Shown here piece after piece: positions 1-11,449 of a DNA stretch of 11,449 bases. The position numbers and the translations under genes are program-made. The stretch spans positions 1 through 11,449 of the forward strand of contig JAISQG010000037.1 in assembly GCA_031274335.1 (NCBI GenBank), written 5' to 3'. This DNA comes from Gracilibacteraceae bacterium (lineage in GTDB: Bacteria > Bacillota > Desulfitobacteriia > Desulfitobacteriales > Syntrophobotulaceae). Under the pieces are notes generated by a model that had not been told where the DNA came from, made no database searches, and saw only the letters and a list, made by a program, of their open reading frames with translations. Position 1 is the first letter of the stretch; each line of letters opens with the position of its first letter.

Positions 1-1100
1 ATCTGGAACGCATCCCGGCGGCGGCGGCCGTCAGTGAAAGCGTTCGCATCGCCAAACTGACGTCGCCGCCGCATGCCGCCCTCGTCAACGCGGTTTTGCG
101 CCGCGTGGCCGCGGAGGGATGGGATATTGCCTGGCCGGATCCGGACAAACAAACGGCCGAATATATCAGCGCCCGCCATTCGCACCCGGAATGGCTGGTG
201 CGGCGCTGGCTCCGGCGCTGGGGGCGCGAAAACACGGAAAAATTTTGCCTGTGGAACAACGAGCCGGCGGAAACCTGGCTGCGGGCCAACAGGCTGCGCT
301 GTTCGCGGGAAGAACTCATAGCCGCCCTTCTCTCATCCGAGCCGGACGGGGAACATTCCGTCCGGCCCGGAGCCTGGGCGCCGGAAGCGGTGGCTCTCAC
401 CGGCTTTGGCGCGCCGGACGATTTGGCGGTTTTTCGCTCCGGCCTTTGCGCCGTACAGGACGAAAGCGCCCAATTGGCGGCTATTCTTCTCGCGCCCGCG
501 CCGGGGGAACATGTGCTGGACGCTTGCGCCGCTCCCGGCGGCAAAACGACGCATTTGGCTGAATTGATGGCCGACGAGGGAACGGTCACGGCTCTTGATA
601 TTCACGCCCATAAGCAGCCGCTGATTGAGCAGAACGCCAAACGCCTAAGCCTCGGCATCATCACGGCCCGCGTCGGCGACGCCTGCGCCCTGCCCGCGGC
701 GGAGCGCGGCGCTTATGATAAAGTGCTGGTGGACGCTCCGTGTTCCGGGCTGGGGGTTTTGCGCCGGCGCGCGGATTTGCGCTGGCAAAAAGAAGATCAG
801 CAGCTCGGCGCGCTGCCCGCCTTGCAGCTTGATATCCTCAGCGGAGCCGCCGGCGCCGTGCGGCCGGGCGGAGAACTCCTTTACGCAACCTGCACGGTGG
901 AACCCGAAGAAAACTTTGCCGTGGCCAAAGCCTTTGCCGCCGCGCACACGGATTTCAGGCCGGTGCCCCTCGGCGGCTGCCTGCCTTTTTCCTGCCCCGC
1001 GCCGGCTGACGAACGGCAGTGGGAAAAGGGTATGTGGCAAATTTTACCTCATCTGCATAATATGGACGGTTTTTTCCTGGCCAAATTCCAGCGGCGTTAG
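1..1100 (+). CDS. rsmB: 16S rRNA (cytosine-C5) methyltransferase RsmB, 5'-truncated
   Basis: RsmB uses S-adenosylmethionine to make m5C in the decoding-region helix of 16S rRNA (C967 in E. coli numbering). The reading frame is open from base 3 to the TAG at 1098-1100, giving 365 visible residues; the true start lies before the window. The first visible residues (PHAALVNAVLRRV) belong to the NusB-like RNA-binding domain of this family. The methyltransferase domain shows the SAM-binding motif DACAAPGGKT, then DAPCSGLG with the assisting cysteine encoded at 741-743, then YATCTVEPEEN with the expected catalytic cysteine at 891-893. All three are intact, so the protein should be active. It sits directly upstream of rlmN, as in many Bacillota, usually in an fmt-rsmB-rlmN-prpC-prkC-rsgA run. 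Another m5C methyltransferase (RsmF/YebU type) is unlikely because of the NusB-like region and the context. Confidence 0.95.
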   Translation, partial: LERIPAAAAVSESVRIAKLTSPPHAALVNAVLRRVAAEGWDIAWPDPDKQTAEYISARHSHPEWLVRRWLRRWGRENTEKFCLWNNEPAETWLRANRLRCSREELIAALLSSEPDGEHSVRPGAWAPEAVALTGFGAPDDLAVFRSGLCAVQDESAQLAAILLAPAPGEHVLDACAAPGGKTTHLAELMADEGTVTALDIHAHKQPLIEQNAKRLSLGIITARVGDACALPAAERGAYDKVLVDAPCSGLGVLRRRADLRWQKEDQQLGALPALQLDILSGAAGAVRPGGELLYATCTVEPEENFAVAKAFAAAHTDFRPVPLGGCLPFSCPAPADERQWEKGMWQILPHLHNMDGFFLAKFQRR

Positions 1101-1104
1101 AGTG

Positions 1105-1160
1105 AGATTGCGGGTCAAGCCCGCAATGACGGTGGCGAGGAATCCGGAGGGTGAGATTCC
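1105..1160. repeat. Palindromic intergenic repeat, REP-like
   Basis: The rsmB-rlmN spacer holds a perfect 8-bp inverted repeat, ATTGCGGG at 1107-1114 and CCCGCAAT at 1120-1127 with a TCAAG loop. A second imperfect dyad follows, with GGAATC at 1139-1144 and GATTCC at 1155-1160. The first hairpin with its GATTGCGGGTCAAGC... wording resembles a family of dispersed palindromic repeats that I recall from intergenic regions of many bacteria. There is no T-tract after either hairpin, so an intrinsic terminator is unlikely. Copy number in this genome cannot be judged from one window. Confidence 0.5.
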
Positions 1161-1201
1161 GGGGTTGTTATTTCAGGACAATTCTTAATCAGGAGAATAT
1201 T

Positions 1202-2257
1202 TTGTCAAATCACCGCGCAGATGTATACGGCCTGAGCGAAGCCGAATTGGCGGAAGTGTGCCTTGACGCGGGCCTGCCGGCTTTTCGCGCGCGACAGGTT
1301 TTTGAGTGGGCGCAGGGTCGCGCGGTCACGGAATGGGCAGAGATGAAAAACATCGGCGCCGCCGACCGCGACGCGCTGGCCGCGCGTTTGGCGCTGAAGC
1401 CGCCTGAGCCGGTGCGGGAAAGCGCGGCTCCGGACGGAACGCGCAAGTTTTTGTTCCGGCTGGAGGACGGCGAGACAATTGAAACAGTGCTGATGGATTA
1501 CCATAAGGACAGGAGCCGCAGCCGCGCCACCGTCTGCCTTTCCGTTCAGGCGGGCTGCGCTGTCGGCTGTCCGTTCTGCGCGACGGGCCGCATGGGCTTT
1601 CGCCGCGATTTGAGCGCCGGGGAAATCACCGGCCAGCTGCTTGCGCTCACGGCGCGCATGCGCCGCCTCGACGCGGATTTTCACGTCTCGAACGCGGTTT
1701 TCATGGGCATGGGCGAGCCGTTTTACAACATGACGCCGTTTCTCAAGGCGGCGCGGCTCTTAAACGAAGCGCGGGGCCAGAACATCGGCATGAGACGCAT
1801 GACGGTTTCGACGAGTGGCGTCGTGCCGGGAATTTTACGCCTGGCGGCGGAAAACACGCAAATCGGCCTGGCCGTCTCTCTGCACGCCGGCACGGATGAA
1901 CTGCGCGATAAAATTGTGCCGCTCAACCGCAAGTATCCGCTCGCCGCGCTGATGGCGGCGTGCGGTGAATATGTCCGCCTCACCGGCAGGCGCGTCACCT
2001 TCGAAATCGCGCTGACGCGGGAAAACACGACCGAGACGCAAGCGCGCGCCGTGGCCGCTTTATTGCGCGGCATGCCGGCACATGTGAATCTCATCCCCAT
2101 AAACGCCGTGGCCGGCAGCACGGCCGAGCGCCCGTCGCCCGCCAAAGCGGCGGCCTTTCGGCAGGAACTGGCCCGGCGGGGGTTGACTGTGACGGTCAGG
2201 GAAGAAAAGGGCGGAGACATTGAGGCGGCATGCGGTCAGCTGCAAGCAGGATTTTGA
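1202..2257 (+). CDS. rlmN: Dual-specificity 23S rRNA A2503 / tRNA methyltransferase RlmN
   Basis: RlmN is a radical SAM enzyme that makes 2-methyladenosine at A2503 of 23S rRNA, next to the peptidyl-transferase centre, and in some bacteria at A37 of tRNAs. The protein has 351 residues, normal for the family. The radical SAM motif CAVGCPFC supplies the 4Fe-4S cysteines C119, C123 and C126. C112 (in TVCLSVQ) matches the conserved cysteine just before the cluster motif. C344 near the end (AACGQL) is the cysteine that becomes methylated during catalysis. The family motifs GMGEPF, VSTSGVVPGI, AVSLHAG and VNLIPIN follow in order. I chose the TTG start at 1202 because AGGAG at 1191-1195 sits 6 nt before it. 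An in-frame GTG at 1151 would add 17 residues read from the intergenic repeat and has no better site. Confidence 0.96.
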   Translation: MSNHRADVYGLSEAELAEVCLDAGLPAFRARQVFEWAQGRAVTEWAEMKNIGAADRDALAARLALKPPEPVRESAAPDGTRKFLFRLEDGETIETVLMDYHKDRSRSRATVCLSVQAGCAVGCPFCATGRMGFRRDLSAGEITGQLLALTARMRRLDADFHVSNAVFMGMGEPFYNMTPFLKAARLLNEARGQNIGMRRMTVSTSGVVPGILRLAAENTQIGLAVSLHAGTDELRDKIVPLNRKYPLAALMAACGEYVRLTGRRVTFEIALTRENTTETQARAVAALLRGMPAHVNLIPINAVAGSTAERPSPAKAAAFRQELARRGLTVTVREEKGGDIEAACGQLQAGF

Positions 2258-2313
2258 AAGTTTGCAGCGAATGAATAATAATCAAAAGCTTGGGCAGTTC
2301 CTAAGGGGAAATC

Positions 2314-3033
2314 ATGGATTTTTTTCATCTCTCGGAAACAGGTTCCGTGCGCCGCCATAATGAGGACAGCTATTTGCTCCTGCCGGAGTCGGGCTTGTTC
2401 GCGGTGGCTGACGGCATGGGCGGGCATAACGCCGGCGAAGTGGCTTCGGCTCTGGCCATCGAAACGTTGCGGCAGGCGGCGGACGCGCTCCGCGGCCTGA
2501 CAGCCGCAGAGGCGTTGCTTTGGATGGAGTCGACGTTTGACGAGGCCAACCGGCGGATCTTGGCGGCGGCGGAACAGGAAGGCCAGGATGGCATGGGCAC
2601 CACGCTGACCGCCTTGGCCCTTTGCGGGGAGCAGGCAGTATTCGGCCATATCGGCGACAGCCGCGCCTATTTGTTCCGGGAAGGCGCGGCGGCTCAGCTG
2701 ACAAAAGATCATTCCGTGGTGGGAGATCTTTTGCAAAACGGCGTTTTGACTCCGGAGGAAGCATCGCGCCATCCCGCCCGCAACGTGCTTTCCAAGGCGC
2801 TGGGCGCCATCCCCGCGGCTCCGGACTGCTTTGGCCGGGATATTCGCGCGGGAGACGGCCTGTTGCTTTGCACGGACGGTTTTTCCAATCTGCTGAAGGA
2901 AGACGAAATGAACGGCAGCCTGCGAAGCGTGGCAAACAGCGGATTGTTTGCCGGCTGGAAAAATATCATTCTGGAACGCGGCGCCCCCGATAATTTCACC
3001 GCAGTGCTGATTTTTCCCCGCGGCAGGCGCTGA
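2314..3033 (+). CDS. prpC: PP2C-family Ser/Thr protein phosphatase (PrpC/Stp1 type)
   Basis: This soluble metal-dependent phosphatase removes phosphate from Ser/Thr residues of proteins phosphorylated by the neighbouring PrkC kinase, and from the kinase itself. It has 239 residues, the usual length. The PP2C motifs appear in order: RRHNEDSY with D18, VADGMGGHNAGE with D33 and G34, GMGTTLTAL, HIGDSRAYL, LTKDHS, TDGFSN with D188, and GAPDNFTAVL with D226 and N227. The aspartates are the expected metal ligands of the binuclear Mn/Mg centre, so the enzyme looks intact. The ATG at 2314 follows AAGGGG with a short spacer. The gene lies 56 nt after rlmN and 24 nt before the kinase. Phosphatase-kinase pairing in this order is standard for Bacillota. 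Confidence 0.95.
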   Translation: MDFFHLSETGSVRRHNEDSYLLLPESGLFAVADGMGGHNAGEVASALAIETLRQAADALRGLTAAEALLWMESTFDEANRRILAAAEQEGQDGMGTTLTALALCGEQAVFGHIGDSRAYLFREGAAAQLTKDHSVVGDLLQNGVLTPEEASRHPARNVLSKALGAIPAAPDCFGRDIRAGDGLLLCTDGFSNLLKEDEMNGSLRSVANSGLFAGWKNIILERGAPDNFTAVLIFPRGRR

Positions 3034-3057
3034 CAGCGTTGAACGAGGAGTGCTTTT

Positions 3058-4710
3058 GTGAGTAAGATATTGGCGGGCAGATATGAGTTGCTGGAAACCG
3101 TGGGCGCCGGCGGCATGGCCATAGTCTATAAAGCCACGGATTCGCTGCTTGGCCGCACGGTGGCCGTAAAAATCTTGCGGGAGCAATTTGCGAGCGACGA
3201 AGGCTTTGTCCAGCGTTTTCGGCGGGAAGCCCAATCCGCGGCCAGCATCTCTCATCCGAACATCGTTTCCGTTTATGACGTGGGCCGGGAAGACGCGGAT
3301 TTCATCGTCATGGAATATGTTGAGGGACAGACGCTGAAAAAGTATATCCGGGATAAAGCGCCTTTTCCGGTCAAAGTGGCTGCCGAAGTTGCGCGGCAGG
3401 TGGCGGAAGCCTTGGCGCACGCTCATTCGGGCGGAATTATCCATCGCGATATTAAACCGCAGAACATCATAATTACCGCGGACGGGCGGGTCAAGGTGAC
3501 TGATTTTGGCATCGCGCACGCCGTTTCCGCCGACACGCTCACGCAGGCAGGCGATATCGTCGGATCGGTGCATTACCTTTCCCCCGAACAGGCCAAGGGC
3601 CAGGCCACGGTATGTCAGTCCGACCTGTATTCCCTCGGCGTCATCCTGTTTGAAATGCTCAGCGGCCGTCTGCCTTTTGACGGGGATTCGCCTTACGCGA
3701 TAGTCATGAAGCATCTGAACGAGACGCCGCCGTCGCTGAGCGCGCTCAATCCGGAAGCGGGCCCGGAACTGGAAAAAATTGTGCAGCGCTTGCTGGCCAA
3801 AGATATTGGCCGGCGGTATGCCAGCGCCGGCGAGCTCCTGACGGATTTGGTCAGATTTATGGCGGGGCGGGCGCTGGAATGGGAGGACACGGAAGGCCCG
3901 GGCGGAACAAAGGTACACGAAACCATAGGCTCATCTGCGCTGAGCGGCCCCCGGAAGAGCAAGCGCCGCAAATTGATCATTCGCTCCGCTGCGGCCGCTG
4001 CCGCTCTTGCCCTCCTGATTGCCGCGGCGCTTGGCATATCGGCGCTTTTCAGGATTTTGTACGTGCCGGAGGTAACAGTGCCGGATCTCGCGAACCTGAC
4101 GGCGGAAGAGGCGGAACTAGCCTTGCGGGACGCCGGGCTGACCATCGGCTTGAACATCAATTATGATTTCAGCGACACGGTGGAAAAAGACCGGGTGATG
4201 AGCCAAAGCGTGCCCGCGGAGGAAAAAGTCAAAGAAGGGCGGGTGATTGAAATCACTTTAAGCAAAGGCGTTCCGCTTATCCCCCTGCCTGACCTCAAAA
4301 CGGATCATCCGAGCCTGGAAAACGCAAAAATCCGTCTCGCACAGGCCGGATTTCCGGATGAGGCTGTCTCTGTCATAACGGAGCCCAGCGGCACCGTGGC
4401 GAAAAACCATGTGGTCAACCAGGATCCCGTGCCCGGAACGGAATGGCCGGCGGACGGCAAAATAACGCTTTGGGTCAGCAGCGGCGAGGCATATGTCATG
4501 ACGGTGATGCCGGATGTGTTGAAGCTTTCCTCGGCGGAGGCTAAAAAAATTTTAAGCGCCAATTATTTCGTTGTGACGGTCAAAACGGAAAAATCGGATC
4601 TTTACCCGCCGGATGCGGTCATTTCCACGGATCCCGCGCCGGCGCGCGCCATTATGCAGGGCGGTCCGGTGACGCTGGTCGTGTCTCTCGGCCCCGGCCC
4701 GCCGGTCTGA
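3058..4710 (+). CDS. prkC: Membrane Ser/Thr protein kinase with three PASTA repeats (PrkC/StkP type)
   Basis: PrkC is a membrane kinase that senses peptidoglycan fragments or lipid II through external PASTA repeats and phosphorylates proteins of division, wall synthesis, translation and, in spore formers, germination. The 550-residue protein has a cytoplasmic kinase domain at about 9-268: Gly loop GAGGMA (16-21), K38, E57, HRDIKPQN with D131, DFG at 149-151 and SPE at 175-177. The activation loop carries T160 and T162, likely autophosphorylation sites. A basic juxtamembrane stretch (about 297-305) precedes one Ala/Leu-rich transmembrane helix at about 306-331. PASTA repeats follow at roughly 337-404, 405-476 and 477-546. 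The GTG start is supported by AGGAG at 3046-3050, 7 nt upstream. In B. subtilis the homologue phosphorylates RsgA (CpgA), whose gene is also nearby here. Confidence 0.96.
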   Translation: MSKILAGRYELLETVGAGGMAIVYKATDSLLGRTVAVKILREQFASDEGFVQRFRREAQSAASISHPNIVSVYDVGREDADFIVMEYVEGQTLKKYIRDKAPFPVKVAAEVARQVAEALAHAHSGGIIHRDIKPQNIIITADGRVKVTDFGIAHAVSADTLTQAGDIVGSVHYLSPEQAKGQATVCQSDLYSLGVILFEMLSGRLPFDGDSPYAIVMKHLNETPPSLSALNPEAGPELEKIVQRLLAKDIGRRYASAGELLTDLVRFMAGRALEWEDTEGPGGTKVHETIGSSALSGPRKSKRRKLIIRSAAAAAALALLIAAALGISALFRILYVPEVTVPDLANLTAEEAELALRDAGLTIGLNINYDFSDTVEKDRVMSQSVPAEEKVKEGRVIEITLSKGVPLIPLPDLKTDHPSLENAKIRLAQAGFPDEAVSVITEPSGTVAKNHVVNQDPVPGTEWPADGKITLWVSSGEAYVMTVMPDVLKLSSAEAKKILSANYFVVTVKTEKSDLYPPDAVISTDPAPARAIMQGGPVTLVVSLGPGPPV

Positions 4711-4769
4711 GTTTCCGGACAATCCAGGCAGCGGGCGTGGGCACGGATATTTGGAAGGGAGGTCAAGAC

Positions 4770-4967
4770 ATGTTGAAAATGGAGCGGATTTTGCCGGTGC
4801 ACGGGCTCGGCGGCTCAATCGAGCAGGCGGTGAATAACTTTTTTGAAGCGGAGCAAATCAAGCGTGAGCACATAGTTCACATCGCCGTTGAGCGCGGCGA
4901 AGTGCATTACGGCGGGGACGGACGCGAGTATTTGTCCGCCGTGAATATTTTTTACGATAAGGATTAG
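4770..4967 (+). CDS. Small protein, possibly Cse60-like
   Basis: This 65-residue protein is encoded between prkC and rsgA. The ATG at 4770 follows a near-perfect ribosome binding site (GGGAGGT, 4757-4763), so I preferred it to the in-frame GTG at 4737. The sequence has no signal peptide or membrane helix. Its layout is a short beta segment (ERILPVHG), a helix with IEQAVNNFFEAE, then two beta segments (HIVHIAVERGEVHY and EYLSAVNIFYDKD). That pattern of N-terminal strand, helix with a conserved-looking N-x-F/W, and a C-terminal strand ending in a hydrophobic -IFY resembles the small sporulation protein Cse60 family as I remember it. Identity is too low to be sure without a profile search. Its position suggests a link to the kinase or to RsgA, but this is inference. 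No function is assigned. Confidence 0.75.
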   Translation: MLKMERILPVHGLGGSIEQAVNNFFEAEQIKREHIVHIAVERGEVHYGGDGREYLSAVNIFYDKD

Positions 4968-4970
4968 GAT

Positions 4971-4988
4971 CTTGTCGGGTCCGGCAAG
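4971..4988 (+). other. RNA hairpin between the small gene and rsgA
   Basis: CTTGTCG at 4971-4977 and CGGCAAG at 4982-4988 form a 7-bp stem (one G-U pair) with loop GGTC, three bases after the small gene's stop codon. Only GGTCTATTT follows, so it is at best a weak terminator. It could instead be a processing or stability element that changes expression between the small gene and rsgA. Confidence 0.35.
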
Positions 4989-5018
4989 GGTCTATTTCCG
5001 TTGAACGGAGTCTCATTT

Positions 5019-5912
5019 ATGCGTTTGCGTGGCAAATTGCTGCGGGGATACGGCGGTTTTTATTATGTTTACGCCGAAGGCCGAGTATGGGAATGTTCTC
5101 TGCGCGGTCGTTTTCGCCTGCAAAATCAGAGTTTTCTCCCCGGCGACGAGGTGGAAATACTGGCGGATGGTGACGGCGGCGGAACCCTGGAGCAGGTTTT
5201 ACCGCGGAAAAATTCACTCCGGCGGCCGCCGGTCGCCAACGTGGATCTGGCCGTGCTCGTGTTTTCCATCGCGAAGCCGCCGCCGGATGAAACCTTGCTC
5301 AACCGCCTCCTCGTCCAGGCGATGCACGCGGGGCTGGATGTGATCATCGTTTTTACCAAGGCGGACTTGCTGTCTCCGGCGGAAGGCGGCGCGCCTGACC
5401 TTTATCGCGAAGCGGGCTTTGAGACGCATCGCGTTTCCGCTTTGACCGGGGACGGCGCGGACGCTCTGGGCGCGCGTTTGCGCGACCGGATCGCGGTGCT
5501 GGCGGGACAATCCGGCGTGGGCAAAACCACTTTGCTGAACGCGCTGGGCGGCCTCAGCCTCAAAACGGGCGAGCTCAGCGCCAAACTGGGACGGGGCCGT
5601 CATACCACCCGCCATGTGGAGCTGTTGCGCGTGGCGGGCGGGCTGGTTGCGGACACGCCGGGTTTTTCGTCCTATAATCTGCCGGAGATGAAACCGGCGG
5701 AACTGGCGCGCTGTTTCCCGGAAATGTCGCCCTATGCGGACGGGTGCCGTTTCAAAAGCTGTTTGCACGACAAAGAGCCGGATTGCCGCGTCAAGGAGGC
5801 GGTGGCCGCCGGCGGCATTGCCGGGGCGCGCTATGAATATTATCTCAGCTTTTTACACGAGCTGCGCGGACGCAAGCCAAAAAATCCGCGCCGCCGCGGG
5901 GAGGAAAAATGA
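5019..5912 (+). CDS. rsgA: Small ribosomal subunit biogenesis GTPase RsgA
   Basis: RsgA is a circularly permuted GTPase that helps late maturation of the 30S ribosomal subunit by testing the decoding centre. The 297-residue protein has an N-terminal OB fold (about 1-65), then the phrase [14 protein letters not shown] typical of the family. Because of the permutation, the G4 motif TKAD (113-116) comes before the P-loop GQSGVGKTT (163-171) and the G3 motif DTPG (212-215). The switch segment GRGRHTTRH lies at 192-199. The C-terminal zinc site is C243, C248, H250 and C256. All key residues are present. I chose the ATG at 5019, 8 nt after GGAG at 5007-5010, over the TTG at 5001, which overlaps that site. 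The stop codon overlaps the guaA start. In B. subtilis this protein is a PrkC substrate. Confidence 0.95.
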
Positions 5913-7441
5913 GTCAGGATCTGATTCTCGTGCTTGATTTCGGCGGACAGTACAACCAGCTCATCAGCCGCCGCGTGCGCGAAGCGAATGTGTATTCGGA
6001 AATGATTTCCTATCATACGCCGCTAGCCGAAATAGCGGAGCGCCGGCCCAGCGGCATCATTTTTTCCGGCGGCCCGGCCAGTGTGAACGAACCAGGCGCA
6101 CCGACGGTGGACGCGGGTATTTATAACCTAAATATCCCTATTTTGGGAATTTGTTACGGCATGCAGCTTATGGCCCGCCAATTGGGCGGGCGGGTGGAAA
6201 AGCCGGAGGCGAAGGAATACGGGCGGACGGAAGTGGAGATTCATCCCGCGGGCGGGATGTGGCGCGGGTTGCAGGGCAAACAGGTTTGCTGGATGAGCCA
6301 CGGCGACGCGGTGGTGCAATTGCCGCCCGGTTTCGCGGCGGCGGCGGCTTCGGCCAGCACGCCGGCGGCCGCTATGTATGACGAGGGGCGCCGCCTTTAC
6401 GCCGTGCAGTTTCACCCCGAGGTCCGCCACACGGAGCGCGGGCAGGAAATGCTCACGCGTTTTCTTTTCGATGTATGCGGCTGCCGGGGGGACTGGACGA
6501 TGGATTCGTTTATCAGCGGCCAGATCGAAGCCATTCGCGCGCGGGTGGGCGGCAAGCGGGTTTTATGCGCGCTTTCCGGCGGCGTCGATTCATCCGTGGC
6601 GGCCGTTCTGATGCACAAGGCTGTCGGCGACGCCCTGACCTGCGTTTATGTGGATCACGGCTTCATGCGCAAAGATGAGTCCGCGCAAATACGCGAGATT
6701 TTTACGCGCGATTTTGCCCTGAACCTGGTGTTTGTGGACGCGGCGGAGCGTTTTCGCGCCAAGTTGGCCGGGGTGGCGGAGCCGGAGCGCAAACGCAAAA
6801 TCATCGGCGAGGAGTTCATCCGCGTTTTTGAGGCGGAAGCGCGCAAATTGGGACGGATCGATTTTCTCGCGCAGGGGACGCTTTACCCCGATATAGTGGA
6901 AAGCGGCACGGACACGGCCCAGACGATCAAGAGCCATCACAATGTGGGCGGATTGCCGGCGGACATGCAGTTTGAACTGATCGAGCCTTTGCGCATGCTT
7001 TACAAGGATGAGGTGCGCGAGGTCGGGACGGAGCTGGGCATACCGGAAGAAATCGTCTGGCGGCAGCCTTTTCCCGGCCCCGGCCTGGCCGTGCGTATAA
7101 TCGGCGAGCTGACGGAGGAAAAATTGGACAAGCTGCGCGAGGCCGACGCCATTATGCGCGAGGAAATCAGGCGCGCCGATCTGCACCGCGACATCTGGCA
7201 GTATTTCGCCGTTCTGCCGACAATACGCAGCGTGGGCGTCATGGGCGATGAGCGCACATACGGTTATCCCATAATTTTGCGCGCCGTCACGAGCGAGGAC
7301 GCGATGACGGCGGATTGGGCGCGTTTGCCCTATGAGGTGCTGGCGCGGATATCGAGCCGCATTGTCAACGAGGTGCCGGGCATAAACCGCGTGGTTTATG
7401 ACGTGACCTCCAAGCCGCCCGGAACCATAGAATGGGAATGA
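5909..7441 (+). CDS. guaA: GMP synthase (glutamine-hydrolysing)
   Basis: GuaA converts XMP, glutamine and ATP to GMP in purine synthesis. The 510-residue protein is a full-length fusion of three parts. The class I glutamine amidotransferase domain (about 4-190) has the nucleophile C82 in GICYGMQ plus H169 and E171 in QFHPEV. The ATP pyrophosphatase domain carries the P-loop SGGVDSS at 223-229. The C-terminal dimerisation domain ends with the family signature KPPGTIEWE. Nothing is missing. The ATG overlaps the rsgA stop as ATGA, preceded by GGGGAGG, so translation is probably coupled to rsgA. This is an unusual partner; the more familiar neighbour of rsgA in Bacillota is rpe. No convincing intrinsic terminator follows within the first 90 bases downstream. 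Confidence 0.97.
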
Positions 7442-7538
7442 CTTTTGCGTTTCACATCTTTTCACCACTTGCCGCAAACCCGCATAAATAGCCGCTTTCA
7501 GCGTTTTGGCCTGGCATAAGTTTCCAGCATTTTGCGCC

Positions 7539-7586
7539 TTTGTACACAACTTTTCATATCTTTTTGTGTACAAATTTGTGTACAAA
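7539..7586. repeat. Three operator-like dyads TTTGTnnACAAA
   Basis: Two perfect 12-bp copies of TTTGTGTACAAA lie head to tail at 7563-7574 and 7575-7586. A third copy, TTTGTACACAAC, lies at 7539-7550 with one end mismatch. Each is a dyad, TTTGT-N2-ACAAA. Centre-to-centre spacings are 24 and 12 bp. Copy one can also pair with copy two or copy three as an 11-bp RNA stem. This pattern fits a cooperative repressor-binding array, or a hairpin 100 nt after guaA. The protein that might bind is unknown. Confidence 0.5.
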
Positions 7587-7594
7587 ATATAGCA

Positions 7595-7663
7595 AAGACC
7601 ATACTTGAGCTTGGATCAGGATTCGCTTTTATGGGAAACCAATACCACATTGAAGTCAGTGGC
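7595..7663 (+). pseudogene. Remnant of a YhcG/DUF1016-type PDDEXK nuclease
   Basis: About 23 residues in one plus-strand frame (KTILELGSGFAFMGNQYHI, followed by EVSG) match the wording I know from the start of the C-terminal nuclease domain of YhcG/DUF1016 proteins, where LELGxGFAFVGRQxHLEVGG precedes DFYIDLLFY. Immediately after SG the similarity stops and GC-rich repeat sequence begins; the catalytic core is absent. Upstream, the frame runs through the dyad repeats and shows no homology either. So only a fragment survives, presumably after deletions on both sides. YhcG-type genes are mobile and patchily distributed, often near restriction-modification or toxin-antitoxin loci. The match is short but dense, so the family call is fairly secure while the history is inferred. 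Confidence 0.65.
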
Positions 7664-7712
7664 GTAATCGCCGGCTGGCGGACGCCCTTGTTTGGTCTGC
7701 CAGCGGCCGCCT
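7661..7712. repeat. GC-rich inverted repeat
   Basis: GCTGGCGGA at 7674-7682 pairs with TCTGCCAGC at 7696-7704 (9 bp, one G-U pair), next to a small GGCG-TAAT-CGCC hairpin at 7661-7672. The remnant nuclease frame breaks exactly where this structure begins. No T-tract follows on either strand, so it is more like a REP or insertion scar than a terminator. Confidence 0.4.
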
Positions 7713-7715
7713 TAA

Positions 7716-7868
7716 TCATGCCTCAAGCATCCAATCCACCAGATTTTTGGTTTTAATCACCTCATACTTGATGGTATACGGAAACGCCGCGAAAGTCAAT
7801 AGTTTCATGCCTGGAAGTCTGAAACTCATTAAATCGTCATGTTTCATACTTCGAAGTCTGAAACTCAT
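7716..7868 (-). CDS. Possible 50-residue ORF overlapping the queH stop
   Basis: An ATG at 7868-7866 overlaps the queH TGA at 7867-7865 as ATGA and opens a 50-codon frame ending at 7716. The N-terminal half is encoded by the 28-bp repeats, giving a duplicated peptide MSFRL..MK. The C-terminal half, with FPYTIKYEVIKTKNLVDWML, looks protein-like and hydrophobic-rich, and its FPYTIKYEV stretch faintly recalls a beta strand of RelE/ParE-type toxins, but it is far too short for such a toxin. No strong ribosome binding site precedes it, so expression would depend on coupling to queH. It may equally be a decayed gene end placed here by chance. Confidence 0.25.
   Translation of the reverse strand: MSFRLRSMKHDDLMSFRLPGMKLLTFAAFPYTIKYEVIKTKNLVDWMLEA
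7802..7868. repeat. Two copies of a 28-bp palindromic direct repeat
   Basis: Copies at 7802-7829 and 7841-7868 are identical at 25 of 28 positions and are separated by 11 bp. Each has GTTTCA and TGAAAC arms. Copy two is a nearly perfect 24-bp palindrome (7841-7864) centred on ACTTCGAAGT, with one mismatched pair; copy one differs at three central bases. The queH stop codon lies inside copy two. In RNA from the minus strand each copy would fold into a hairpin just after queH. Roles as an operator pair, an RNA 3'-end stabiliser or a mobile repeat are all possible. Confidence 0.65.
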
Positions 7869-8449
7869 ATGTTTGGGGCTTGCGTTTCTCCGCGCCGGCC
7901 GTCCGGAGCCGCCCGGAACCGGCAGCCGCAGAAATTCTGTCTGTAAAAGCCCTGCTCTTTGGCTATGGCCATCGTTTGCTTAAACCCATCCCGCTTTTTG
8001 AAATTCTCCGGCAAAAAAACGAGTCCCGGCTTTTCCGCCGCCAGCTCCGCTCCGACGGCGAGAATCAGGGCGCTGTTTTTGTGCGGGCTCACTGTGAGCG
8101 TCGTGGTAAAAAGTCCGATTCCTTTCTCCCGCGCGAAAGCGGCCGTCCGGGCCAAGCGGTGGCGAAAACAGGCCGCGCAGCGGCGCCCGCCCTCCGGTTC
8201 GGCTTCCAGGCCCCGCACCGCCTGTTCCCAGGCATCCGCGTCCGGCCCGTCCTCCACAAAGGCACAGCCTGAGGCGAGCGCGTGACGCCGGCACTCATCG
8301 CGCCGGCGCTCGTATTCCTCCGCCGGATAAATATTCGGATTGCAAAAATAGACGACCGGCACATAATCCGTCAGTAGCTTCGCCAGCGGATACCCCGCGC
8401 AAACCGCGCAGCAGGCGTGCAGAAGAACAGTCTCCCTGGGAGCGCTCAC
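7865..8449 (-). CDS. queH: Epoxyqueuosine reductase QueH
   Basis: QueH (old name DUF208) reduces epoxyqueuosine to queuosine in tRNA, the last step of queuosine synthesis at wobble position 34 of GUN tRNAs. It is the non-homologous replacement for QueG. The 194-residue protein shows the family signature throughout: LLHACCAVC with C13, C14 and C17, YFCNPNIYPAEEYERR, EPEGGRRCAACF with C91 and C94, FTTTLTVSPHKN, FKKRDGFKQ, and YRQNFCGC with C174 and C176. The paired cysteines are the expected iron-sulphur and metal ligands. The GTG start overlaps the upstream lipoprotein stop as GTGA, with GGAG 7 nt before it, so translation is coupled. The extra C-terminal tail after CGC (about 18 residues) is short and basic. 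No other queuosine gene is in the window. Confidence 0.93.
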   Translation of the reverse strand: MSAPRETVLLHACCAVCAGYPLAKLLTDYVPVVYFCNPNIYPAEEYERRRDECRRHALASGCAFVEDGPDADAWEQAVRGLEAEPEGGRRCAACFRHRLARTAAFAREKGIGLFTTTLTVSPHKNSALILAVGAELAAEKPGLVFLPENFKKRDGFKQTMAIAKEQGFYRQNFCGCRFRAAPDGRRGETQAPNI

Positions 8450-9144
8450 GGCTCCGCTCCGCCTTCACGCAGCGAATTGTGAATATAAAGCATATCCCGG
8501 TGCATCGTCCCACGCTCGTTTCCCATCCCGTGATAGCCCGCCAGCCAGACATACTCCGTTTCGTTCCAGTCTATATAAGTGTAAACGATTTGGTCCTCCT
8601 CTGTAGCGGAAACATAGCGGATCGCTTTTTTGCCGCCGATGTCCAGGTTCTCGGAAGTGATTTCCCCCTCGATCATGCCGATTTCCGCCAGCGCTATATC
8701 CCCCAGTTCCCTCCCGTCCTTGGGCAATATCGACAGACTGATTTTCGCGGAATTCGGATTCTGCCCGCCCTTCCCGCCGTCCTCATAGACATCGGGATCC
8801 TTTTTCCAAAAAATCAGGACCTCGTATCCTTTTTCCGCTTCGCCCAGCTCTTGATCCCAATAATTGGGATACTGAATCGTGTAAAATCCCGCGTCATACG
8901 TGAGGATGTTGATGCCCGCCATCGTCTCATCCGGCGGCAATTGCTCCGCAGCCTCAGGCGAGTCTTCCGGCGGAGTGTCCGGTTCCGGCCCGGAAACTGC
9001 CGGCTCGCTGATCTCCGGCGGCTCGGCCTGCTCCGGCTCCGGCTCTGGCGCGACCTCACGGCAGGCGCTCAGAAAAGGCAGACTCAGCATCAGCAGGAAA
9101 ACGGCCGTGCGGCAAATTAATCTTTTAATGGGAATCACCTCCAT
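8446..9144 (-). CDS. Secreted lipoprotein with acidic Pro/Glu linker, unknown domain
   Basis: From the ATG at 9144 the protein has 232 residues. A basic N-terminus (IKRLICR) and a hydrophobic core (TAVFLLMLSLPF) lead to the lipobox LSAC with the lipidated cysteine C28, so it should be anchored outside the cytoplasmic membrane. Residues about 30-73 are a low-complexity Pro/Glu/Ser linker. The remaining 150 residues, beginning INILTYDAGFYTIQYPNYWDQ, form a globular domain; the FYTIQYP..W opening resembles PsbP/Mog1-like domains of bacterial lipoproteins, but I do not recognise a specific family. The start is uncertain: a perfect GGAGGTGAT lies inside the frame at 9134-9142, pointing to initiation after it (see findings). 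The stop overlaps the queH start by 4 nt. The pairing with queH has no obvious functional logic. Confidence 0.8.
   Translation of the reverse strand: MEVIPIKRLICRTAVFLLMLSLPFLSACREVAPEPEPEQAEPPEISEPAVSGPEPDTPPEDSPEAAEQLPPDETMAGINILTYDAGFYTIQYPNYWDQELGEAEKGYEVLIFWKKDPDVYEDGGKGGQNPNSAKISLSILPKDGRELGDIALAEIGMIEGEITSENLDIGGKKAIRYVSATEEDQIVYTYIDWNETEYVWLAGYHGMGNERGTMHRDMLYIHNSLREGGAEP
9134..9142 (-). promoter_or_regulatory. Strong Shine-Dalgarno inside the lipoprotein reading frame
   Basis: GGAGGTGAT on the minus strand is a 9-base perfect match to the 3' end of 16S rRNA. It overlaps the ATG (9144-9142) and GTG (9138-9136) candidates and so cannot serve them. The first codon at a proper distance, 8 nt after GGAGG, is ATT at 9129-9127, followed by AAA AGA, the basic start of the signal peptide. 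Confidence 0.6.
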
Positions 9145-9213
9145 ACTGCTTCGGTCAATTTTCGCCTCCGCGTAAAATAACCGAATTCTTCTCAACTAAT
9201 TTTAAGCTTAATC

Positions 9214-9222
9214 TGATATAAT
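9214..9222 (+). promoter_or_regulatory. Extended -10 promoter for the first small RNA
   Basis: TGATATAAT is a perfect extended -10 element (TGn followed by TATAAT at 9217-9222). No good -35 is visible at the proper distance, which extended -10 promoters tolerate. A 10-bp palindrome TTAAGCTTAA at 9202-9211 lies just upstream, in the spacer. Predicted start of RNA is A9229. Confidence 0.6.
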
Positions 9223-9228
9223 TTTTTC

Positions 9229-9288
9229 ATCATCAAAATCCCTTCCCTGTTTCAGGGGGCTTGCCCGTACTTATAGCGGGCTTTTTTT
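9229..9288 (+). ncRNA. Candidate small RNA 1, about 60 nt
   Basis: Between a perfect extended -10 box and an intrinsic terminator lie about 60 bases with no reading frame of note. The predicted RNA starts with CATCATCAAAA, then a C/U-rich stretch TCCCTTCCC at 9239-9247, of which TCCCTT should be unpaired. A hairpin CCCTG-TTT-CAGGG (9245-9257) and the terminator hairpin follow. No plus-strand protein gene precedes it for 1.8 kb, so the terminator is not explained by a coding transcript. The unpaired UCCCUU could pair with ribosome binding sites such as AAGGGA, as known for C-rich regulators of the RsaE/RoxS type. No match to a named RNA family is claimed. Confidence 0.5.
9263..9288 (+). terminator. 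Intrinsic terminator of small RNA 1
   Basis: GCCCG at 9263-9267 pairs with CGGGC at 9277-9281, with a nine-base loop, followed directly by seven T (9282-9288). Read on the minus strand there is no T-tract after the hairpin, so it acts only on plus-strand RNA. The GGGGGC just upstream could compete for the GCCC arm. Confidence 0.7.
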
Positions 9289-9303
9289 CCCGGATCGGCG
9301 CCT

Positions 9304-9368
9304 CGGACGGAGAGAAAAAATTTTTTAAAATATTTTACCGGCATTAAGCTGATTCTCAACTCCGTCCG
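9304..9368. repeat. Perfect 9-bp inverted repeat around the second promoter
   Basis: CGGACGGAG at 9304-9312 and CTCCGTCCG at 9360-9368 are exact reverse complements 47 bp apart. The right arm ends one base before the second TATAAT box. Between the arms lies an A6T6 palindrome (9315-9326) and other AT-rich sequence. It may be a DNA-looping operator, or the terminal repeats of a tiny element. As RNA it could form a 9-bp stem. Confidence 0.5.
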
Positions 9369-9375
9369 TTATAAT
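9315..9375 (+). promoter_or_regulatory. Promoter for the second small RNA
   Basis: A perfect TATAAT lies at 9370-9375. The -35 is poor. The AT-rich block 9315-9336 (A6T6 plus TAAAATATTTTA) lies about 46-67 bases before the predicted start A9382, where a UP element would be expected. Promoter 1 and this region share the 9-mer TTCTCAACT (9189-9197 and 9353-9361) and the 7-mer TTAAGCT, in swapped order. Confidence 0.5.
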
Positions 9376-9381
9376 AATCTT

Positions 9382-9449
9382 AGCTCTTATACCTTCCTTA
9401 AATATAACTTGGGGAAACCCAGACCTGAGGCGACTCAGGTTCTTTTTTT
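9382..9449 (+). ncRNA. Candidate small RNA 2, about 68 nt
   Basis: The unit runs from a TATAAT box to a strong intrinsic terminator and has no useful reading frame. The predicted RNA has an unpaired 5' part with a C/U-rich ACCTTCCTT at 9391-9399, complementary to AAGGAAGGT and thus to SD-like sequences. It then has hairpin TGGG-GAAA-CCCA (9410-9421) and the terminator hairpin with loop GCGA. Both loops are GNRA tetraloops, a sign of selected RNA structure. It ends 8 bp before the stop of the convergent SDR gene, so read-through from that gene would be antisense to it. It repeats the architecture of small RNA 1: C/U-rich 5' segment, small hairpin, terminator. Confidence 0.5.
9423..9449 (+). 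terminator. Intrinsic terminator of small RNA 2
   Basis: ACCTGAG at 9423-9429 pairs with CTCAGGT at 9434-9440, loop GCGA, followed by TCTTTTTTT (9441-9449). The T-tract exists only in the plus direction. On the minus strand the hairpin is preceded by A and followed by CTGGG, so it is not a good terminator for the SDR gene. Confidence 0.8.
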
Positions 9450-9457
9450 GCGCTGTT

Positions 9458-10195
9458 TCAGATAAACGCTCCGCCGTCCACCACGATATTCTGACCTGTG
9501 ATGAAGCCGCCGTGCGCGACGACGCCGTAAACCGCTTCCGCCACATCCTCCGCCTCGGCGACCCGGCCGAGCGGCGTCCCGCCGGCCAAATGGGCGATAT
9601 GATCCTCGTGTCCCTTGACCCAGCGCGTGGTGACGATGCCGGGCGCGATGCCGATCACCCGCACTTCCGGCGCGAGCACGCGGGCTAAGGATTTTGTCAC
9701 GCTGATTTCCGCCGCCTTGGAAGCCGAATAGGCGAGGCAGCTGCCGAGACCGTTCAGCCCGGCGATGGACGTGATGTTGACAATGACGCCGCGGCTCCGC
9801 CGCAGCTCTGCCGCCGCCGCCCGGCAGCAAAAGAACGTGCCTTTCACGTTGAGGGCAAAAATCTCATCCCAGTATTCCTCTTTCATGCCCTCCAAATCCG
9901 CGTGATCGATAAAACGCGTCCGTCCGGCGTTGTTGACGAGTATATCCAACCCGCCGGCATCGGCGGCGACTTGGGTCGTCATGGCCCGGACCGCGGCGTC
10001 GTCGGTCAAATCGGCTTTGTACAGGCGGCAGACCGCTCCCGTCGCTTCAATTTCCTTCTTTGTCGCCAGCGCCTCCTGCTCCGAGTGGGCGTAATTAATG
10101 GCGATCACCGCTCCGGCGCGCGCGAAGCGCAGGGCGGTCGCCCGCCCGATCCCGGTCCCTCCCCCCGTGATTAACGCTATTTTTCCTTTCAGCAT
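9458..10195 (-). CDS. SDR-family NAD(P)-dependent oxidoreductase (FabG-like)
   Basis: This is a classical short-chain dehydrogenase/reductase of 245 residues with one Rossmann domain. The cofactor loop TGGGTGIG is at 10-17, NNAG at 88-91, and the catalytic tetrad is N116, S143, Y156 and K160 (YSASK). The C-terminus ends ITGQNIVVDGGAFI, the usual SDR closing strand. It resembles 3-oxoacyl-ACP reductases (FabG) but stands alone, with no fatty acid synthesis genes nearby, so substrate and direction are unknown and I give no symbol. The residues after the second beta strand (NYAHSEQEA) lack the acidic residue typical of NAD specificity, which hints at NADP(H). The ATG is preceded by AGGAGG with an 8-nt spacer. 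Its 3' end faces the small RNA 2 terminator. Confidence 0.9.
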   Translation of the reverse strand: MLKGKIALITGGGTGIGRATALRFARAGAVIAINYAHSEQEALATKKEIEATGAVCRLYKADLTDDAAVRAMTTQVAADAGGLDILVNNAGRTRFIDHADLEGMKEEYWDEIFALNVKGTFFCCRAAAAELRRSRGVIVNITSIAGLNGLGSCLAYSASKAAEISVTKSLARVLAPEVRVIGIAPGIVTTRWVKGHEDHIAHLAGGTPLGRVAEAEDVAEAVYGVVAHGGFITGQNIVVDGGAFI

Positions 10196-10236
10196 GTCCC
10201 CCGCCTCCTATATACTCCATGTTATTTAAAATTAAT

Positions 10237-10253
10237 CTGTCGCCCGTTGACAG
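10237..10253 (-). terminator. Weak hairpin after the TPR gene
   Basis: On the minus strand CTGTC-AACGGGC-GACAG is followed by ATTAATTTT, six bases after the TPR gene's stop. A 5-bp stem and a poor T-tract make this a weak terminator at best. The 64-bp gap could also house a promoter for the SDR gene, but I see no clear -35/-10 pair. Confidence 0.3.
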
Positions 10254-10259
10254 CGTTAC

Positions 10260-11449
10260 TCAACTGAATATTTTACGGAGCAGCCGTCCCCAGAAACCCC
10301 GGCCATCCTCTTTTTCCGCGGCGCCGCCGCCGTCCAGAAGGCGGAGAAAATTCCGGTACTCGACGTCGTTTTTGATCGCCAGAGTATTCTCCAGATATTT
10401 CCGCGCTTTTTCCGTGTCACCGCGCTCCGCGTACAAACAGGCCAGGCCGAAAAACGCGTCGTAGCAGGCCCGCGTCGCGCAAACTTGATAATCTTTTGCT
10501 TCGGCCACAGCTTGACAATAAGCCTCCTCCGCTTCCGGCCGGCCCATGCCGCGCAAACATTCGGCCCGCCAGTAATGATAGCAGGGAGTGCGCTCCGGGA
10601 GCGGCACGGCGTCCAGGAGCATTTCCGCTTTTCTCCAGCATGGCTCCGCTTTCAGGCGGCGCCGCAACCGCACGCGGGCGAGGCGGATATAATCCTCGTA
10701 GTTGTCCGGCTCGATTTGCAGGGCTTTGATGTAATAAGCATCCGCCATGACCAGATTAATTTTGCCGTGCTCGTAGAACCCCGCCGCCGAAACCAGAATA
10801 TACGGATCCTTTTTTTTCGAGGCTTTCAGCGCGCGGGTATACCAGGCTTTGGCTTCGTCAAAACGCTCCAGCTCATAGACACATTCGGCCACATGGCACA
10901 TCGTCTCCGCGTCCAGCCCCCCGGCGCTCCGGAGCGTTTCCACCAGACCGGCCGCTTCCTGATAGCGGCCGCGCCATTTGAAAAAAAGCAGCTTGTCCCG
11001 CGTCAGATCCGCCACGGCGGCGTTATTGCCCGGAGCGAAATGTTCCAGCGCCTTATCCCATACCGCCAGCGCCTCTTCTTCCCTCCCCGACTCGGCCAGC
11101 GCGTTGCCCAGGGTCCGGTGCGCCGACAGGATATCCGCGTCTGTCTGAATCGCCTGCTCCAGGTATTTTATCGCCTCGGGCAAATTGCCCTCGGCATGGT
11201 AAGTGACGCCGAGATTATTATAAGCATAAGCGTAGGAAGGGTCAAGCTCCAGCGTCTTGAGGTAATCTGCTTTTTCTTTCTCCGTCTGGCCCAGGTTCCC
11301 GTAAACCAGCCCGCGGGCGATATAATAATACGGATGCTCGCGGATTGCCAGCTGCTTGGTGAACATCTCAGCCGCCCGCTCGTATTGCCCCATTTTCGCC
11401 AAAACGTCGCCCAGATTGCCGTAAGCGCCGGAATGGTTCGGATCAGCCT
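10260..11449 (-). CDS. Tetratricopeptide (TPR) repeat protein, 5'-truncated
   Basis: The frame is open from the window end to the TGA at 10260-10262, giving 395 visible residues; the real start lies outside. The whole visible part is helical TPR repeats. Clear units include AYGNLGDVLAKMGQYERAAE, YYYIARGLVYGNLGQTEKEK, AYNNLGVTYHAEGNLPEAIK, AHRTLGNALAESGREEEALA, CHVAECVYELERFDEAKAWY, and FGLACLYAERGDTEKARKYL near the end, with more degenerate repeats between. TPR arrays are protein-binding scaffolds. The tail is a Gly/Glu-rich stretch followed by the basic, aromatic FWGRLLRKIFS, possibly an amphipathic helix. No signal peptide or catalytic domain is visible, but the N-terminus is missing. A weak hairpin separates it from the SDR gene. 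Its specific role cannot be told. Confidence 0.9.
   Translation of the reverse strand, partial: ADPNHSGAYGNLGDVLAKMGQYERAAEMFTKQLAIREHPYYYIARGLVYGNLGQTEKEKADYLKTLELDPSYAYAYNNLGVTYHAEGNLPEAIKYLEQAIQTDADILSAHRTLGNALAESGREEEALAVWDKALEHFAPGNNAAVADLTRDKLLFFKWRGRYQEAAGLVETLRSAGGLDAETMCHVAECVYELERFDEAKAWYTRALKASKKKDPYILVSAAGFYEHGKINLVMADAYYIKALQIEPDNYEDYIRLARVRLRRRLKAEPCWRKAEMLLDAVPLPERTPCYHYWRAECLRGMGRPEAEEAYCQAVAEAKDYQVCATRACYDAFFGLACLYAERGDTEKARKYLENTLAIKNDVEYRNFLRLLDGGGAAEKEDGRGFWGRLLRKIFS

Follow-up and report, generated by a model that had tools for sequence, protein, structure and literature searches.

Organization of the Locus

The window is an 11,449-nucleotide stretch of DNA from a Gracilibacteraceae bacterium (GenBank assembly GCA_031274335.1, contig JAISQG010000037.1, positions 1 to 11,449). 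The gap between two of its genes, at positions 9145-9457, contains two promoter-to-terminator units on the plus strand. On one side lies a minus-strand coding sequence (8446..9144), divergent from unit 1, which is predicted by eye to encode a secreted protein or lipoprotein; a Pfam search with it returned no match, and it is present in four relatives within the genus. On the other side, a short-chain dehydrogenase gene (9458..10195, minus strand) is convergent with unit 2.

Unit 1 opens with a response-regulator-type box at 9189..9208 on the plus strand, composed of the half-sites TTCTCAACT (9189-9197) and TTTTAAGCT (9200-9208), which are exact pattern matches. The -10 element TATAAT follows at 9217..9222, 10 bp after the TTTAAG core, and the TGA just ahead of it looks like an extended -10. 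The predicted small RNA spans 9229..9288 (plus strand) and consists of the 5′ end AUCAUCAAAAUCCCUUCCC, with CAU at 9231-9233 and CCCUUCCC at 9240-9247, a predicted hairpin at 9243-9259, and a terminator-like hairpin with a T run at 9263-9288. Unit 2, on the same strand, has its box at 9342..9361, with the half-sites CATTAAGCT (9342-9350) and TTCTCAACT (9353-9361), and its TATAAT at 9370..9375, which is TATACT in three relatives. Its predicted small RNA spans 9382..9449 and comprises a 19-nt 5′ end (9382-9400), a small hairpin (9410-9421), and a second terminator-like hairpin with a T run (9422-9449).

A preliminary description of this DNA had recognized a tandem pair of similarly built small RNA units, and direct reading of the sequence bears this out: the parts follow the same order, each box holds the 9-mer TTCTCAACT, TTAAGCT occurs at 9202-9208 and 9344-9350, and TATAAT comes next in both. 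Two small RNA genes probably adjoin here behind near-identical switches. Opposite unit 1, on the minus strand (9180-9260), there is also a ribosome-site-like sequence with a 13-codon frame, GGGAAGGG...ATGATGAAAAAA, which by eye is not kept in genome G011.

Conservation in the Genus

The locus is kept in all four genus relatives of the window genome (G000). Unit 2 is present in all five genomes with small changes in its box, and its predicted 5′ end is an invariant 19-nt segment, AGCTCTTATACCTTCCTTA, while much of the surrounding sequence has diverged. This segment begins 6-7 bases after the -10 element, at the predicted transcript start. Covariation analysis of unit 2 was uninformative. BLAST matches in G006, G016, G020, and G024 were judged by eye to be coding sequence and rejected.

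Unit 1 occurs in two of the five genomes, G000 and G003, and its box in G003 reads TTCTCAGCT-TA-TTTTAAGCT. By eye, the locus lacks unit 1 in G001, G002, and G004, where unit 2 lies only about 100-150 bp from the start of the lipoprotein-like gene. The model R2 agrees: at E<=0.05, G000 and G003 are the only genus genomes in which it finds unit 1. The preliminary description had proposed an alignment across relatives and would have counted the retention of a single unit, or loss of the shared 9-mer, against a sibling pair. The alignment divides on this point: three of the five genomes keep only unit 2, whereas the exact 9-mer stands in four of the five unit-2 promoters and one of the two unit-1 promoters.

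The same distribution bears on a reading of unit 1 as an antisense RNA that acts in cis on the 5′ leader of the lipoprotein-like gene diverging from it. Lying upstream and on the other strand, unit 1 would be suitably placed for such a role. However, three of the four relatives keep the gene without unit 1, the kin of unit 1 in G011 and G015 adjoin other genes, and a minus-strand promoter match at 9359-9332 has, by eye, different spacing in relatives, which together make a cis antisense function very unlikely.

The Composite Promoter Box

Unit 1 is arranged as TTCTCAACT-AA-TTTTAAGCT-8 bp-TATAAT and unit 2 as CATTAAGCT-GA-TTCTCAACT-8 bp-TATAAT; the second half-site ends 8 bp before TATAAT in both. 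The half-site types are swapped, with TTCTCAACT upstream in unit 1 and downstream in unit 2. By their cores (TCTCAA-N5-TTTAAG in unit 1 and ATTAAG-N5-TCTCAA in unit 2), both units read hexamer-N5-hexamer-N10-TATAAT, and their half-sites lie 11 bp apart in register. Such a pair of directly repeated half-sites, spaced by roughly one helical turn and held at constant spacing to the -10 element, is the promoter feature typical of OmpR/PhoB-type regulation. The composite element is a predicted site of the type used by OmpR/PhoB response regulators, and its geometry is that of the CiaR box. Because the shared 9-mer and TTAAGCT both form halves of this one element, they are more than chance repeats. 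A sigma-70 promoter scan lists neither TATAAT as part of a promoter because neither unit has a TTGACA-like -35 element, an absence that would fit activator-dependent promoters.

A strict but degenerate pattern for the element was derived from these sites, which match it by construction. Across 25 genomes of the family, it occurs at eight places in six genomes; seven correspond to units in the five genus genomes, and the eighth is upstream of a Zn-peptidase gene, while the reversed control occurs nowhere in these 25. A related pattern with <=3 mismatches gave 94 places versus 38 for its control. A general core pattern, which covers window unit 1 and misses unit 2 because the first core of the latter starts with A, gave 37 places versus 12 in 73 genomes of the order. 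The earlier suggestion that the pair might share a regulator is strengthened by a common regulator-type site in both promoters that, in its strict form, marks these RNA genes at seven of its eight places. Chance resemblance, in the form of AT-rich intergenic DNA with terminators and no regulated RNA, is scarcely credible: the consensus scans are weak when taken alone, and the sigma-70 scan passes over both TATAAT hexamers, but conservation in five genomes and the specificity of the motif argue against it.

RNA Architecture and Pairing Potential

The preliminary description assigned each unit a C/U-rich, anti-SD-like segment. Both segments exist, and the label applies to each with a reservation. 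The unit 1 stretch lies partly within the first predicted hairpin (mean unpaired 0.46), and the unit 2 sequence is CCUUCC rather than the canonical CCUCC. In unit 1, CAU is followed 6 nt on by CCCUUCCC, an order complementary to an SD-spacer-AUG layout. The small hairpin that follows the unit 2 5′ end is of the GGGGAAACCC type in G001, G003, and G004; in the window and G002 copies, the lowest-energy fold pairs the C/U stretch instead. Across 12 RNAs, the mean openness of the C/U stretch ranges from 0.45 to 1.00.

Pairing with a generic AAGGAGG start was compared with 200 shuffles of each RNA. Of these, 9 did as well for the second G015 RNA, 12 for window unit 2, 16 for G003 unit 1, 21-34 for the other unit-2 copies, and 23 for the G009 RNA. 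Window unit 1 (78), the first G015 RNA (159), and the G012 (160) and G011 (167) RNAs paired no better than shuffles. On account of these results, it is a guess that any targets may have GGAAGG-type starts. A scan for complements of 9-10-nt seeds in 442,296 bases of genus DNA (both strands, some loci twice) returned nothing convincing. Among 4227 Rfam families searched with the whole window, none matched above the gathering threshold; at 9150-9460, the sub-threshold matches (up to E 10) resemble chance hits and were rejected.

Related RNAs in Other Genera

Model R1 was built from the five unit-2 copies with their promoters. In 73 genomes of the order, it recovered unit 1 of G003 with E 1.5e-4 and a G015 place with E 1.1e-3; a match in G057 (E 0.0195) was rejected because it lies opposite a 233-codon frame. 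On extracted loci, R1 gave 36.9 bits in G011 and only 18.2 bits for window unit 1. Model R3, whose training set added G003 unit 1 to the R1-stage sequences, located 12 places in nine of the 25 family genomes at E<=0.1. Four of these are outside the training set: G012 (1.2e-6), window unit 1 (5.9e-6, a score that is not independent because the training set included G003 unit 1), G009 (8.5e-4), and the second G015 place (1.0e-3). These models include promoter and terminator, and a match alone is therefore not evidence for the RNA body. A class-wide search of 82 genomes under stricter filters, with up to 47 candidates scored per genome and E<=0.01, found no place outside the family. Kin RNAs appear to lie behind such a box in genera g2, g6, g8, and g9, with weak matches in g6 and for the second in g2. 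Similar genes for exported proteins precede the G011 RNA and the first G015 RNA, and the protein in G015 has CWB2 and CAP domains. In G029 (L010/L143), a unit-1-like box stands about 270 bp before an exported-looking 338-codon frame with no evident terminator between them.

The RNA bodies were compared over their first 26 nt against 1000 shuffles, in 45 pairs and uncorrected for their number. For window unit 1, none of the 1000 shuffles was as good with the G011 RNA or the first G015 RNA, compared with 7 for G012, 18 for G009, and 55 for the second G015 RNA. The corresponding values for window unit 2 are 14 (G012), 35 (first G015), 46 (G011), 209 (second G015), and 408 (G009). Common descent with the RNAs of other genera is supported for the body of unit 1 and only suggested for that of unit 2. 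Between the two window units, 243 of 1000 shuffles scored as high. Promoter and layout unite the pair, and the two RNA bodies have no significant match.

The preliminary description had also envisaged an undescribed sibling family and proposed looking for further copies in the genome. The lack of an Rfam match and the shared box agree with such a family, whereas homology between its two RNA bodies is not demonstrable. Kin of unit 1 occur in other genera, in G011 and G015. For unit 2, a search with <=3 mismatches for additional copies or near-perfect complements of the 19-nt segment found only the units themselves in the five genus genomes; the reversed control gave three matches, all in G004.

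These promoter-terminator pairs might have no base-pairing role; they could instead yield short transcripts under regulation, serve as sinks for the regulator, or be leaders with no action in trans. The shortness of the RNAs and the empty target scan in genus DNA are in keeping with this. Against it, the invariant 19-nt 5′ end and the occurrence of kin beside differing sets of genes speak for a role that depends on the sequence, and the next downstream genes in the window are on the other strand. A function without pairing is therefore considered distinctly unlikely.

Genes Behind the Box

The neighbours of the box were sampled at 20 hand-chosen sites (from the strict and 94-place patterns) and at 27 of the 37 core-pattern places; 6 of the 20 and 6 of the 27 are matches within open frames. 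The box precedes a Zn_peptidase_2 gene (identified by Pfam on the G023 copy, with similar genes in g3 and g6 by eye), genes for DltD and a PP-binding protein (assigned by Pfam for a single protein each in G047 and G025, and by eye in G042 and G063), and DUF4342 and PAP2 genes. Several other matches precede genes without an evident envelope role.

The membrane Zn-peptidase box is seen in g3 and g6 (L015, L048, L050, L034, and L035, with the motif at about position 1500). In L015, the gene lies by eye between fmt-like and rsmB-like genes; the window starts inside an rsmB-like gene, and its own Zn-peptidase copy, if any, would thus be just outside. The box before dltC/dltD-type genes is found in g12 and g20 (L098, L140, L141, and L145, the last from its first codons only) and may indicate a possible link to cell-wall D-alanylation. 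In G001 and G004 (L164 and L165), a box match followed by the palindrome GTATATACACATGTGTATATAC stands before a gene; both sites were flagged as lying within an open frame, and a different regulator may use them.

The Candidate Regulator

Pfam was used to list the OmpR-type regulators in the five genus genomes, and those above the cut-off were grouped, excluding weak matches in long proteins. No group is present in all five genomes. The group whose recognition helix looks closest to that of CiaR is PhoP-like (NIVEVYVRYLREKL versus VVEVYVSKVRKKL in CiaR), and its nearest solved relative is M. tuberculosis PhoP. It occurs in G000 (G000:C229), G002, and G003, and in 19 of the 25 family genomes at E<=1e-60. 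At this threshold, it was not found in G001 (88% complete) or G004 (95%), both of which keep unit 2 and its box. The other OmpR-type genes of G001 and G004 are not the candidate, and the G004 fragments C120 and C123 carry other helices. For the regulator and its kinase, no NCBIfam model was above cut-off among the best 25 matches.

Homology searches led to 20 loci of the regulator's gene, and 12 of them have the box upstream at spacing 10, with no more than 9 of 300 shuffles doing as well. These 12 represent 11 of the 19 genomes and six genera (g2, g3, g4, g6, g7, and g9); four of them are near-identical g3 sequences, and two, in G010 and the second G015 copy, precede more distant regulators with 56% and 53% identity. 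A thirteenth locus, in G044 (g12), was met through the box itself and reads TCTCAGCTAATTTTAAGC, nearly that of unit 1. The box is unconvincing before the gene in G008, G011, G017, G019, and G021, and the upstream regions in the three genus genomes lack it (264 to 280 of 300 shuffles as good). Before the other OmpR-type genes of the genus, at loci where a frame was found, no box scores above 14 of 18. The PhoP-like regulator is the candidate for both boxes in the window.

A different OmpR-type regulator might instead govern real small RNAs through the shared box, such as the one with helix NTVDVYIRFLRGKI in G000, G001, G002, and G004. It is present in G001 and G004, the two genomes that yielded no PhoP-like candidate. 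G003, however, which has both units, did not yield it; a scan of four loci showed no box before its own gene; and its helix, in the alignment made here, is without the E and the second Y among the residues reported for M. tuberculosis PhoP (PMC4832192). Another OmpR-type regulator is accordingly an unlikely, though the most plausible, rival to the PhoP-like candidate.

Proposed Function

The best explanation, and a reasonably probable one, is that the locus carries two free-standing plus-strand small RNA genes that are regulated by an OmpR/PhoB-type protein, act in a csRNA-like manner, and form an arm of the envelope-stress response. An OmpR/PhoB-family response regulator would bind the 11-bp-period direct repeat in the -35 region as a tandem dimer and switch on each unit, presumably by activation rather than repression. 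The resulting transcripts would be about 60 and 68 nt long and end at intrinsic terminators. Their C/U-rich 5′ segments may pair with purine-rich translation starts of target mRNAs and lower translation, as csRNAs do. The RNAs would serve as the post-transcriptional arm of an envelope-stress response, since in relatives the same box precedes envelope genes and the regulator's own gene.

On this best reading, the units are putative small RNAs controlled by a two-component system for envelope stress; they resemble csRNAs in build without belonging to that group. Kin of the switch and of the RNAs in related bacteria suggest an undescribed family of stress-response RNAs with a layout like that of the streptococcal one. 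More tentatively, and with somewhat less than even confidence, the PhoP-like two-component system of this bacterial order may run a CiaR-like network of independent origin, controlling its own genes, cell-wall D-alanylation, a membrane protease, and sibling RNAs that block translation starts with their 5′ ends. The defined box and RNA model can now be used for searches in this bacterial group.

Comparison with Known Systems

Among the papers listed by a literature search for small RNAs in presumed relatives, none is about such RNAs in these taxa; one concerns noncoding RNAs of another bacterium. In the published accounts of CiaR drawn on here, the CiaR box is TTTAAG-N5-TTTAAG, 10 bp from the -10 element, with a very important final G; csRNAs carry an unpaired anti-SD and anti-start-codon segment between two stem-loops; the regulon includes dlt, the protease gene htrA, and ciaRH; S. 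sanguinis has the tandem csRNA1-1/1-2; and CiaR is reported only from streptococci (PMC3091779, PMC8317062, PMC8186281). The comparison with csRNAs made in the preliminary description is apt down to promoter geometry, as both window units have a direct-repeat box, N5, and 10 bp to TATAAT. As in those accounts, there are several putative terminated sibling RNAs with anti-SD-like segments, in tandem as in S. sanguinis, and the box neighbours here (dlt-type genes, a membrane Zn-peptidase, and the regulator) parallel dlt, htrA, and the regulator.

There are differences as well. Half-sites here are often TCTCAR, and one half-site per unit ends in A at the place of the G described as very important for CiaR. 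The C/U segment is at the 5′ end in predicted folds rather than between stem-loops, CAU with an anti-SD-like stretch occurs only in unit 1, and unit 2 has no anti-AUG. The candidate regulator is nearest PhoP among solved structures, and its recognition helix is similar to that of CiaR. csRNAs are longer than the window RNAs, which also have no Rfam match.

M. tuberculosis PhoP is reported to bind TCACAGC-N4-TCACAGC through N212, V213, E215, S216, Y217, and Y220 (PMC4832192). The 11-bp repeat period is the same, the TCTCAGC/TTTAAGC half-sites resemble TCACAGC, and four of these six base-contacting residues are identical in the candidate by the alignment made here.

RsaE/RoxS of Staphylococcus and Bacillus is likewise a short RNA with a C-rich motif under an OmpR-type regulator, but the Rfam matches to 9150-9460 with E values up to 10 do not include it. 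The Cpx and sigma-E RNAs are further sibling small RNAs under an envelope-stress regulator. Sibling small RNAs under one such regulator are a recurring design, of which the csRNAs are an example, and another system sharing this promoter geometry, along with similar regulon neighbours, would suggest that selection keeps the wiring more than the sequence.
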